From positions 236,308 through 300,307 of the forward strand of contig SWDS01000010.1 in the NCBI GenBank assembly GCA_005116745.1: a DNA stretch of 64,000 nucleotides. Reading direction: 5' to 3'. The notes below the pieces were generated by a model. It ran no database searches. It was not told where the DNA came from and worked only from the letters and a program-made list of their open reading frames with translations. The position numbers were made by a program, and so were the translations under genes. The DNA is from Nitrospira sp. (lineage in GTDB: Bacteria; Nitrospirota; Nitrospiria; Nitrospirales; Nitrospiraceae). Shown here piece by piece: positions 1 through 52,275 of this stretch. Every line of letters begins with the position of its first letter. Position 1 is the first letter of the stretch.

Positions 1-70
1 ATCGGCCTTTTGCGCGTCACCTCACCGCTGGAGCTGTTAAGTAAGTGCCATTCGGTACCGACCCGATTCG

Positions 71-46903: not shown

Positions 46904-48103
46904 TCAGCCGATCACATTGTCGATGTGATCGCACACATGGCTGGCGAAGGGGAGCGAGCAGGTAAAGGCGGGAGACACGGCGTTGAGCACGTGCATGGAG
47001 CGGTTGTCGCCTTCCAGGACGAAATCCATTTCAAGCTTTTTTTTCGTGATATCGAGGAGCTGGGCTCGAATTCCTGGACGCCCCCATGTATGGTAGTTGC
47101 GCTCGGCCACGCCTTCGGCGAGTACCGAGGCAAGTGCCACCATCTTGCCCCGCGAGTATTTGGCAACCTCCTCCATCGCTAAGCGTCGGAAATCAAATCC
47201 AGCTCCGGTCAGTAACCCGATTCCTCGACTTGCAACTTCAACAAGTTCACCGAAATTGAAGTTGCCGAACCCCTCATAATTCTCTCGCCACAACGCTGGA
47301 ATGGCTGTTGGGCCGATCTTGGCTTTTCCGTCGGCCGTGATTGTGAAGTGGACACCCAGGAACGGATTCCTGAGATCTGGAACGGGATAAATATTGGTAC
47401 GAATCGCACCTGCTGGTTCATCGGAATAGAGATAGAGGCCTTTAAAAGGCAGGATGCGATACTTTTCTGAGAATCCATAGTCCATCGCAATTTTGTCGGC
47501 ATACAGGCCAGCGGCGTTCACGACGTAGCCGGCCTCAATGCTGTCGCGGTCGGTGTACACACTTGTGTTGTCTCGTCGTCGATAGGCTGTGTTGCACTGA
47601 ATTTGAATACCCTCCCGGAGTGCATCTTCCTGCATCGCGTTGACCACTTGAAGCGGACTTACCGTCGAGGTACGTGGCGAAAAGAGGGCGCGTTGGTAGG
47701 TCTTGACTCGTGGCTCAATGGACTTGGCTTCTGCTTCCGTGAGAGGCTGGAGTTCAATGCCGTTGACTTGTCCTCGACGGAATAATTCATCCAGCGATGG
47801 CAAATCGGCCGCATCCTTCGCGACGACGAGCTTGCCGCATTTATTGAGGGGGATGTGTTTGTCCTCGCAGTAGGCGGTCAGTCGTTCGTTCCCAAGACGA
47901 GTAAACTTCGCTTTCAGGCTGTCGGGTGAGTAGTAGAATCCCGCGTGCAGGACTCCGCTATTGCGTCCACTGGCATGGGCCCCGCAAGAAGGTTCCTTTT
48001 CAATTAACAGCACGCGGGCATCTGCCTGGCGTTTGCGAAGCTCACGCGCGATGCTGAGGCCGATGACTCCACCTCCGATGACGAGAAAATCACAGGTTTG
48101 CAT
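46904..48103 (-). CDS. lhgO: L-2-hydroxyglutarate oxidase
   Basis: A 399-residue FAD-dependent oxidoreductase of the LhgO family, oxidising L-2-hydroxyglutarate to 2-oxoglutarate and often giving electrons to the quinone pool. It starts CDFLVIGGGVIGLSIARELRK (FAD dinucleotide fold). It then has SGRNSGVLHAGFYYSPDSLKAKF and YRILPFKGLYL, and ends PFASHVCDHIDNVIG. The start and length are standard. It converges with the SAM hydrolase gene and runs on the same strand as bioA, 48 bases away. Confidence 0.93.
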   Translation of the reverse strand: MQTCDFLVIGGGVIGLSIARELRKRQADARVLLIEKEPSCGAHASGRNSGVLHAGFYYSPDSLKAKFTRLGNERLTAYCEDKHIPLNKCGKLVVAKDAADLPSLDELFRRGQVNGIELQPLTEAEAKSIEPRVKTYQRALFSPRTSTVSPLQVVNAMQEDALREGIQIQCNTAYRRRDNTSVYTDRDSIEAGYVVNAAGLYADKIAMDYGFSEKYRILPFKGLYLYSDEPAGAIRTNIYPVPDLRNPFLGVHFTITADGKAKIGPTAIPALWRENYEGFGNFNFGELVEVASRGIGLLTGAGFDFRRLAMEEVAKYSRGKMVALASVLAEGVAERNYHTWGRPGIRAQLLDITKKKLEMDFVLEGDNRSMHVLNAVSPAFTCSLPFASHVCDHIDNVIG

Positions 48104-48151: not shown

Positions 48152-49519
48152 TCAATCACTGTGCAGAGTCTCTATGGATTTCTTGATGATTTCTAGCATT
48201 TTCTTTAATTCTTCTGTTGTTGTCGAGAGGGGAGGTATGAGCACAAGTATGTTCCCGATAGGTCTTAAGATGAGTCCCTTCGATCGGGCGATGGCCGCCA
48301 CGTGATGACCAGTCTTGGCGCTGAGGGGGTACGGTGTTTTGGTTGTTGTGTCTTGGACCAGCTCGATCCCAACCATGAACCCACGCTGTCGGATGTCGCC
48401 GACATGAGGAATATCAGCAATCGGCTTCAGCCATTGGGTCAACATCTTGATCTTTGCGGACAGTCGGGACAGTGTTTTTTCCTGGCGGAACACTTGGAGA
48501 TTGGCCAGGGCCACGGCACAGCCCAGGGGATTTCCGGTAAAACTGTGCCCATGAAAGAAGGTCTTGAATTCGTCGTAGGTGCCTAAAAATCCTCGATAGA
48601 TTTCATCGGTTGTGAGGGTCGCCGCAAGCGGCATATACCCGCCGGTGAGTCCCTTGCTGATCGCCATCAGATCCGGTGTGATCCGTTCATGCTCGCACGC
48701 GAACATCTTGCCGGTTCGCCCGAAACCCGTTGCGACTTCATCGGTGATCAAGAGGACGTTGTATTTTGTGCAAAGTTCTCGGACTCGTTTCAGATACCCG
48801 GCCGGCTGGGGAATCATACCGGCAGCCGCTTGCATCAGCGGTTCGATGATGAACCCGGCTAGTTCGCGATGACGACGTTTCAAGATTTGTTCAATTGGGT
48901 CGATGCACGCGATCTTGCAGGAGGGGTAGGCGAGTTTGAGCGGGCAGCGGTAACAATAGGGTGGCTCTGCTGCCAGCGTTGGGAACAACAGCGGTTTGAA
49001 CCGAGAATGAAACAGCGCGATATTGCCGACGCTCACGGCTCCGATCGTATCCCCGTGATACGCCATCTTGAGATGGAGAAAGGTATTTTTGGGGCCGGCC
49101 TTCGGATGCCGTTGCTGCCAGTATTGGACAGCCATTTTGAGCGCGATCTCCACGGCGGTAGAACCGTTGTCCGAATAGAAGACGCGCGTGAGCCCCTTCG
49201 GTGCGATCCGGATCAAGTCGCGGGCCAGTTCAATAGCCGGTGGATTGGAGAGACCAAGGAACGTGCAGTGGGCGATGTTATCGAGTTGTTTCTTAATGGC
49301 TCGATCGAGGACAGGATGGCGATGCCCATGGACATTGACCCAAATGGATGAGGTGCCATCGAGATACCTCTTGCCCTCCGTATCAATGAGGTAGGAGCCC
49401 CGGCCACGCTCGATGATGAGCGGATCTTCCTGTTCCCATTCCTGCATCTGGGTAAACGGATGCCAGAGATAGCGGTGGTCCCAGTTCCTCAGCTGCTTCG
49501 TAGAAGGTGGTCGAGTCAT
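48152..49519 (-). CDS. bioA: Adenosylmethionine-8-amino-7-oxononanoate aminotransferase
   Basis: BioA makes DAPA in biotin synthesis, using SAM as amino donor and PLP as cofactor. The 455-residue protein has WHPFTQMQEWEQEDP near the start, TSSIWVNVHGHRHP, YSDNGSTAVEIALKMA, AYHGDTIGAVSVG and DEVATGFGRTGKMFACE. The PLP lysine is in DLMAISKGLTGGYMPL. Full length. It diverges from lepA, with an overlapping promoter pair between them. Other bio genes are not in the window. Confidence 0.95.
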   Translation of the reverse strand: MTRPPSTKQLRNWDHRYLWHPFTQMQEWEQEDPLIIERGRGSYLIDTEGKRYLDGTSSIWVNVHGHRHPVLDRAIKKQLDNIAHCTFLGLSNPPAIELARDLIRIAPKGLTRVFYSDNGSTAVEIALKMAVQYWQQRHPKAGPKNTFLHLKMAYHGDTIGAVSVGNIALFHSRFKPLLFPTLAAEPPYCYRCPLKLAYPSCKIACIDPIEQILKRRHRELAGFIIEPLMQAAAGMIPQPAGYLKRVRELCTKYNVLLITDEVATGFGRTGKMFACEHERITPDLMAISKGLTGGYMPLAATLTTDEIYRGFLGTYDEFKTFFHGHSFTGNPLGCAVALANLQVFRQEKTLSRLSAKIKMLTQWLKPIADIPHVGDIRQRGFMVGIELVQDTTTKTPYPLSAKTGHHVAAIARSKGLILRPIGNILVLIPPLSTTTEELKKMLEIIKKSIETLHSD

Positions 49520-49626
49520 GACTCCATGAATGCTCGTTCGTCAATCCTATGATCAGCCTGGACGATCTGTAATTGATTCTTGACGACTGCCGATGGACGA
49601 GGAAATGGCCTCGATGGCGGCGCGTG

Positions 49627-49655
49627 ATTATAGGTGGAGGCGATCTCTTTGACAA
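49627..49655 (-). promoter_or_regulatory. bioA promoter
   Basis: On the minus strand: TTGTCA (49650-49655), a 17-base spacer, then TATAAT (49627-49632). It matches the sigma70 consensus at 11 of 12 positions. Its -35 box overlaps the -35 box of the lepA promoter on the other strand. The mRNA leader of bioA would be about 100 bases. Confidence 0.7.
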
Positions 49656-49677
49656 CCCAGGAAGCAGTTACTATAAT
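49649..49677 (+). promoter_or_regulatory. lepA promoter (perfect consensus)
   Basis: TTGACA (49649-49654), a 17-base spacer, then TATAAT (49672-49677): all 12 positions match the sigma70 consensus with ideal spacing. The predicted start is near 49684, giving a leader of about 20 bases before the TTG at 49706. Confidence 0.85.
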
Positions 49678-49705
49678 GACCCATTTTTCACCAATGAGCT
49701 AGGAT

Positions 49706-51501
<1,796 letters not shown>

Positions 51502-51505
<4 letters not shown>

Positions 51506-52275
51506 GCCTCGATCAGAATCCGAGAAATGTGGATAAGTTGCCAGGTGCTCCGCGTGGGGGGGGAGATCAGGCCGCGCTCTCGGAGGCCAAACTCGCCGAC
51601 AACACGGACCAATCGGGGCGAAAGTCTCTTGTCCGGGAATATGCGGAAGCGATCATTGTGGCGATGCTCCTGGCATTTGCCATCCGCGTGTTCGTCGTGC
51701 AAGCATTTAAGATTCCATCAGGATCAATGATTCCGACCTTGCAGATCGGCGATCATATTTTGGTCAGTAAGCTCTCCTATGGCCTGCAGTGGCCGACGGA
51801 CTGTAAAGTGCTATGGAGTTTCCCACCGCTCAATTGCTACACGTCCGAAACGGTTGTGACGTTCGGCAAGCCGCAGCGGGGCGACATCATCGTATTTCGG
51901 TTTCCCGAGGATGAAGAGAAAGATTTCATCAAACGCATTGTCGGTCTGCCAGGGGATATTGTCCAACTGAAGAATAAGAGCGTCCTTGTAAACGGCCAGC
52001 CACTCGACGATAAAGCCTTTACGCAACGAATCGATCCCGGCGTCATTGATGGGACGATCAACCCCCGCGATAATTTTGGACCGGTGACGGTTCCGGATGG
52101 ATCGTATTTCGTGATGGGCGATAATCGCGACCAAAGTCTGGACAGCCGGTTTTGGGGCTATGTGCGCGAAGAAAAGATTCGTGGGAGAGCGTTCCGTATC
52201 TATTGGTCCTGGAATGGGCAGGGAAATTGGACGGAGTGGGTCAGATGGGAACGATTCGGAAAGGCGATTCAATAA
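51502..52275 (+). CDS. lepB: Signal peptidase I
   Basis: LepB cleaves signal peptides at the outer face of the inner membrane. The 257-residue protein has a hydrophilic start of about 45 residues and one membrane helix (about 47-66, [18 protein letters not shown]). The nucleophile is Ser75 in [10 protein letters not shown], and the general base is Lys144 in [12 protein letters not shown]. Box E is [14 protein letters not shown]. It overlaps lepA by 4 bases and the next gene by about 31 bases. Confidence 0.95.

Follow-up and report, generated by a model that had tools for sequence, protein, structure and literature searches.

The divergent bioA and lepA genes of this Nitrospira sp. are, in our reading, served by two back-to-back housekeeping (sigma70/sigmaA-type) promoters that share a single -35 box, so that the orientation of the bound RNA polymerase would pick the operon to be transcribed, the bioA -10 box being a later addition; we give this reading a probability of about 0.82. 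The element spans 51 bp (positions 49627-49677 of the window, i.e., of the whole 64,000-nt stretch of DNA that was analysed), and to judge from its sequence it is a real, conserved variant of overlapping divergent promoters in which the -35 is the shared part.

Anatomy of the shared element

On the plus strand the element reads ATTATA, 16 bases, TTGACAA, 16 bases and TATAAT. The features of the element and of the flanking genes are the following:

46904..48103, minus strand, L-2-hydroxyglutarate oxidase-like gene, 48 nt after bioA and likely in the same operon
48152..49519, minus strand, bioA, adenosylmethionine-8-amino-7-oxononanoate transaminase, ATG at 49519 (TIGR00508, 557.7 bits against a cut-off of 405)
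49618..49626, minus strand, bioA discriminator, a G+C-rich stretch (88% G+C) from the -10 to about the predicted start
49620, minus strand, predicted bioA transcription start (+/-2, placed from the -10 position), leader of ~101 nt
49627..49632, minus strand, bioA -10 TATAAT, spacer of 17
49649..49655, no strand assigned, shared -35 heptamer TTGACAA, read as TTGACA for lepA and as TTGTCA for bioA
49649..49654, plus strand, lepA -35 TTGACA (sequence match)
49650..49655, minus strand, bioA -35 TTGTCA (sequence match)
49672..49677, plus strand, lepA -10 TATAAT, spacer of 17
49684, plus strand, predicted lepA transcription start (+/-2, placed from the -10 position), leader of ~22 nt
49706..51505, plus strand, lepA, elongation factor 4, start codon TTG (TIGR01393, 976 bits against a cut-off of 533.9)
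51502..52275, plus strand, lepB, signal peptidase I, overlapping the end of lepA and likely in the same operon

The preliminary description had assigned a perfect consensus promoter, TTGACA-17-TATAAT, to lepA and TTGTCA-17-TATAAT on the opposite strand to bioA, and both were recovered as sequence matches, with 12/12 and 11/12 positions, respectively. Its statement that the two -35 boxes overlap in TTGACAA also held: the hexamers, which lie on opposite strands, overlap by 5 bp, and their union, TTGACAA, is centred on position 49652, which is the centre of the 51-bp element. Both genes are transcribed outward from the element (bioA on the minus and lepA on the plus strand, 186 nt apart), and 28 bases separate the end of the lepA promoter from its TTG codon, and 107 bases that of the bioA promoter from the bioA ATG. 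Since lepB overlaps the end of lepA and the oxidase-like gene follows bioA by 48 nt, two operons probably hang on the element.

At positions 49694-49708 of the window, a lepA-frame ATG that precedes the TTG start by 12 nt is stopped by a TAG at the third codon (ATG AGC TAG GAT TTG). Of the 63 same-genus loci, 34 have both this upstream ATG and its stop. Sister genera were represented by 23 loci chosen by their promoter pattern, and 16 of these have an open frame (ATG AGC CAG GAT TTG). An ATG start of lepA may have been lost, or initiation may be affected by the two-codon frame. A structured RNA at the element was rejected, because no Rfam family reached its gathering score between positions 49300 and 50000, where the one match was at chance level (E 0.78).

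The element is near-palindromic in the window (ATTATAG...CTATAAT around TTGACAA), as would suit an operator for a dimeric regulator, instead of or besides two promoters, and TTTGACAACC is conserved slightly past the hexamer within the family. However, the base beside the bioA -10 varies (C in 29, A in 23, G in 16 and T in 3 of 71 loci) and C occupies the mirror position in 75 of 80; furthermore, spacer length mostly changes on one side only, and the lepA half occurs alone in sister orders. As the main reading a palindromic operator was rejected, because outside the promoter hexamers the symmetry is not maintained, and we regard an operator in any form as very improbable. In E. coli, BirA represses bioA/bioB. 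The N-terminal DNA-binding domain of a ligase that controls a bio operator was not found here: at E 0.001 the biotin ligase, a 280-aa frame, matched just two models, BPL_LplA_LipB and BPL_C, and no HTH, so that repression of bioA by the ligase is unlikely.

Rarity of the promoters and of the composite

The preliminary description had called both matches exceptionally strong, and the boxes are near consensus. TTGACA-16..18-TATAAT without mismatches has one site in the window, where 0.01 would be expected by chance. The perfect TTGACA-17-TATAAT is found five times in the whole 3.86-Mb genome, and with at most one mismatch 32 times, against four for the reversed control. The 51-bp composite, when up to three mismatches of its 19 letters are allowed, has a single site in the genome, and its reversed control has none. 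With at most one mismatch, the composite is present in 144 of 395 genomes of the phylum, and the reversed control in one (G218). Broken down by rank, a match is present in 46 of the 54 genus members, in 43 of 56 further genomes from the family and in 15 of 33 further ones from the order, and beyond the order in 2 of 20 additional genomes from the class and, by difference, in 38 of 232 from elsewhere in the phylum; the matches outside the order (40 of 252 genomes) count sites anywhere in the genome and are not tied to the position upstream of lepA. A composite formed by chance was rejected on these window, genome and phylum counts against the reversed controls.

Conservation within the genus

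The loci were chosen by LepA similarity and not by promoter pattern, which avoids circularity. LepA matches were found in 111 genomes; the regions upstream of lepA were read in 90 of these, the window's own included, and comprised 63 loci of the genus, seven of family f2, 18 of f3 and two of f4. The genus set was taken as 61, i.e., the 63 minus L047, which is truncated, and L063, which carries extra DNA before lepA. TTGACA and TATAAT of lepA are present in all 61. The bioA gene is divergent and adjacent in 59 of them and lies kilobases away in the other two. Of the 59 loci with adjacent bioA, 57 have a perfect TATAAT as its -10, versus neither of the two with displaced bioA. L024 and L030 had been considered as loci without bioA, which was rejected, as the gene lies farther off on the same contig.

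The two exceptions among the 59 are L018 and L053, in which bioA is adjacent, the sequence upstream of the -35 is different and there is no back -10; the best substitute bioA promoter in these two loci scores just 8/12. Another, repeat-like intergenic sequence stands there where the bioA -10 would be. The first impression that L063 had lost both promoters was also rejected: the whole element is intact, and ~230 bp of extra repeat-like DNA lie between it and lepA. The repeat-like sequence in L018, L053 and L063 may belong to dispersed small repeats of Nitrospira.

The heptamer TTGACAA is present in 110 of 113 tallied loci, 23 of them chosen by pattern, the three others being L047 (truncated), L063 (misread) and L079 (TTGACAC). 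The spacer of bioA is 18 bp instead of 17 in 7 of 62 readable same-genus loci. A bioA tree was then built from 57 of the 63 same-genus loci, with no filter on the bioA motif, and used to count changes by parsimony; L024 and L030 (bioA displaced), L036 (short bioA), L047 (truncated), L058 (18-bp lepA spacer) and L063 (element missed by the scan) were left out. No change was counted in TTTGACAA and none in the lepA -10. The bioA -10 had two changes per column, or two to seven unless the 18-bp spacers were allowed for, the bioA-side spacer one to 14, and positions farther out 16 to 25 (16 to 26 unadjusted); the spacer-adjusted counts lean toward the motif, and for this reason the unadjusted ones stand alongside. 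The two changes per column in the bioA -10 are put down to L018 and L053, the only two of the 57 without TATAAT. The four-fold sites of bioA had a mean of 19 changes on an 80-tip tree, whose conservation figures drop genomes with a deviating bioA-side -10 or spacer and include 23 loci found via the pattern itself (f1other, L248-L270); the case for conservation is therefore based on the tree of 57 loci.

The discriminator of bioA has 88% G+C (55 same-genus genomes), compared with 65% for that of lepA and 57% for the flank just beyond. In E. coli, a G+C-rich discriminator is associated with stringent control. Hence, a growth-rate switch might be envisaged, in which ppGpp would weaken the bioA promoter and free the shared box for lepA; the G+C-rich stretch could, however, stem from other constraints, and we consider such a switch unlikely.

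The bioA half in other families and at separated genes

The shared box is kept wholly or partly in three other families of the order, so that both promoters are retained in the genus, f2 and f4 and, in part, in f3. All seven f2 loci and both f4 loci have a perfect bioA -10, as do seven of the 18 f3 loci. In f3, 13 of 18 loci have a bioA -10 with at least 4/6 letters including the key A and T; the perfect box is missing in 11 of 18 and nothing with 4/6 matches is present in 5 of 18, which suggests that part of the order can do without this bioA promoter or uses another in its place. In four f2 loci (L065, L066, L067 and L068) the intergenic region is 95-96 nt long, and in L065 a distance of 11 nt separates the bioA -10 from the bioA ATG; with such short intergenic regions the bioA mRNA would be nearly leaderless, as opposed to the leader of ~100 nt in the window.

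Twenty further genomes of the window's family were added, 13 without and seven with a match to the composite pattern; lepA was present in 16 and its start in 14 (seven without and seven with a pattern match). In these 14 the back -10 is perfect in nine and good in 13, and in the seven loci without a pattern match it is perfect in three and good in six. The exception among the 14 is L313 (G385), where the heptamer is doubled (TTGACAAC-TCT-TTGACAAC), the copies starting 11 bp apart, i.e., about one helical turn; with two copies of TTGACAAC, each gene can use its own box.

A second case of un-sharing is G056, in which bioA and lepA are ~2.7 kb apart and two diverged copies of the promoter region lie 2.4 kb apart (at positions ~174 and 2585 of L342). 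In the copy next to bioA, TTGTCA-18-TATAAT is intact and the lepA -10 is absent; the copy next to lepA retains the lepA promoter, its back -10 being TATAAC. Each gene thus keeps the half that it needs, and this single case is the best non-experimental evidence that the left half is the bioA promoter. In G023, bioA lies ~3.2 kb away and the back -10 is gone; no promoter with at least 9/12 positions was found in front of the displaced gene. Un-sharing was seen in L313 and G056 only.

These loci bear on the alternative that lepA alone has a real promoter here, the match on the bioA side being due to chance or a decaying relic and bioA being started elsewhere. Some f3 loci, as well as L018 and L053, indeed lack a bioA -10 despite an adjacent bioA, and the long leader in the window might also point that way. 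However, the perfect bioA -10 in 57 of 59 genus loci, with few changes on the tree, argues against a relic, as does the fact that the box is lost or decayed when bioA is displaced and retained next to bioA where the element is duplicated. In addition, the box of L065 lies where a promoter would be expected. We therefore regard a lepA-only element as quite improbable.

Origin of the sharing

For the rest of the class and phylum 38 genomes were requested, 37 of which have lepA, and loci were obtained from 30. The lepA promoter is complete (12/12) in 10 of these 30 loci and not in the other 20, and bioA was found in none of the 30 within up to 1.5 kb upstream of lepA. In the other orders of the class (16 genomes), 10 of 14 readable loci have the perfect lepA promoter, with TTGACAA in 10 of 10; a perfect back -10 occurs in none of these 10 and a 4-of-6 match in one. 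The bioA gene was on another contig in all four sister-order genomes tested. Since the heptamer is present in 10 of 10 sister-order loci without a nearby bioA, its near-symmetry was probably not made for sharing. Apparently, going by the present-day distribution, the lepA promoter with TTGACAA is the older one, and bioA co-opted the back face of its -35 box: in an ancestor of the order, bioA would have landed upstream of lepA and gained a -10 at 17-18 bp from that back face.

Predicted polymerase exclusion and possible competition

In RNA polymerase holoenzyme, sigma region 2 contacts the -10 and region 4 the -35 (PMC12825309). At the shared element, sigma region 4 would dock on TTGACAA in either orientation, and the docking orientation would decide which -10 opens, the right one (lepA-lepB) or the left one (bioA), a second polymerase being excluded while the first is bound. 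Counted between their first bases, the two -10s lie 45 bp from each other, and the predicted starts of lepA and bioA are ~64 bp apart. A bound polymerase covers about 64 bp or more. With a footprint as large as the distance between the starts or larger, two polymerases should not bind together, so that mutual exclusion, which follows from the geometry, is plausible. If one polymerase binds at a time, docking would be divided between the operons according to the quality of the -10, the spacer and the start region, and lepA should be favoured because it has the perfect hexamer. Transcription from both promoters is predicted from the sequence; a literature search found no mapped transcript ends for Nitrospira or for these genomes. 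Competition between lepA and bioA, which the preliminary description had expected, may occur and is made more plausible here by the near-consensus boxes.

The sharing could instead be a compact but neutral inheritance, with both promoters working, an occupancy too low for interference and no regulatory effect. This explanation has the same anatomy as the preferred one and differs on function only, and we give it somewhat less than an even chance. In its favour, at five of five E. coli bidirectional promoters basal transcription was too low for competition, and weakening one direction barely affected the other (Warman et al. 2026, NAR; PMC12825309). Furthermore, the heptamer seems older than the adjacency of bioA, so that the sharing may be a historical accident, and the 18-bp bioA spacers mentioned above indicate that the exact geometry is unnecessary. 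On the other hand, the hexamers here are near consensus, and in the same E. coli study raising one -35 did cause competition at all but one promoter (PMC12825309). Un-sharing has occurred, but was seen in L313 and G056 only.

Recurrence at other gene pairs

The exact composite was matched in at least 118 stretches of the collection; among the matches listed, 10 are titled Nitrospira, Nitrospiraceae, Nitrospirales or Nitrospirae. In at least 77 of these stretches, an open frame of at least 80 aa starts within 350 nt on both sides. Among the matches listed, 14 Bacillaceae stretches have one or both members of a HIGH nucleotidyltransferase/YceD pair, and seven stretches titled Ruminococcaceae, Oscillospiraceae or Clostridiales have an RluA-family synthase and YceD, one member per cluster having been identified by models and the rest by similarity. 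The Bacillaceae HIGH nucleotidyltransferase is presumably of the ylbM/tmcAL type. In both clusters the perfect TTGACA faces YceD, i.e., the ribosome- or translation-related side, as in Nitrospira. Individual examples of the recurrence are L094, L110, L108 and others.

The Bacillaceae ylbM/yceD and the Oscillospiraceae/Ruminococcaceae RluA/yceD cases thus have the same 51-bp composite between divergent genes as the Nitrospira element, but they concern other gene pairs in another phylum, and the composites at the yceD pairs would be of independent origin. The ylbM-rpmF neighbourhood is highly conserved in Firmicutes (PMC4634966), and the accessible text of that paper holds nothing on its promoters. 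It is possible, and we put it forward tentatively, that shared -35 promoters form a distinct, recurrent and selected class, in which the strong promoter of a translation-related gene (lepA or yceD) lends the back face of TTGACAA to a divergent partner, and one docking site for sigma region 4 divides polymerase between two operons and sets or switches their ratio. The bacterial bidirectional promoters described so far as an abundant class share the -10 and not the -35. A shared -35 retained through much of an order, with a plausible origin, cases of un-sharing and recurrence would offer a clean system for asking whether competition for initiation is itself selected, and it predicts a coupling of a biotin gene with a translation factor that would otherwise not be looked for.

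Comparison with known systems

A search of the open-licence PMC literature, in which terms like -35 are unsearchable, found neither a -35 common to divergent promoters nor the lepA/bioA locus, which is weak evidence of absence. Bidirectional promoters were reportedly described by Warman, Grainger and colleagues in Nat Microbiol in 2021. Bidirectional promoters that share a -10 are abundant (PMC10268837); by definition their starts lie 7-25 bp from each other, the commonest distance being 18 bp. The element resembles them in that one stretch of DNA would serve two divergent starts, would be bound by polymerase in a single orientation at once and is expected to show competition if strong. Unlike in these promoters, it is the -35 that is shared here, the -10s lie at the outer ends and the predicted distance between the starts is ~64 bp, which places the element outside that class.

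The overlapping opposed promoters Pr and Pc of pLS20 are also used by polymerase one at once (PMC4207663). For these, the authors favour an arrangement in which the -10 of one is the -35 of the other, the two are of unequal strength and the regulator Rco acts on both (PMC4207663), whereas in Nitrospira the -35s coincide, both promoters are near consensus and a regulator is not known. Finally, the divergent bioA/bioB promoters of E. coli (PMC12825309) likewise have bioA on one arm of an overlapping divergent promoter. There, however, bioA is paired with bioB and it is the -10 region that is shared, whereas in Nitrospira bioA faces away from lepA, the two promoters have the -35 in common and no HTH match was found in the ligase; the presence of bioA in both elements is a coincidence of gene and not of architecture.
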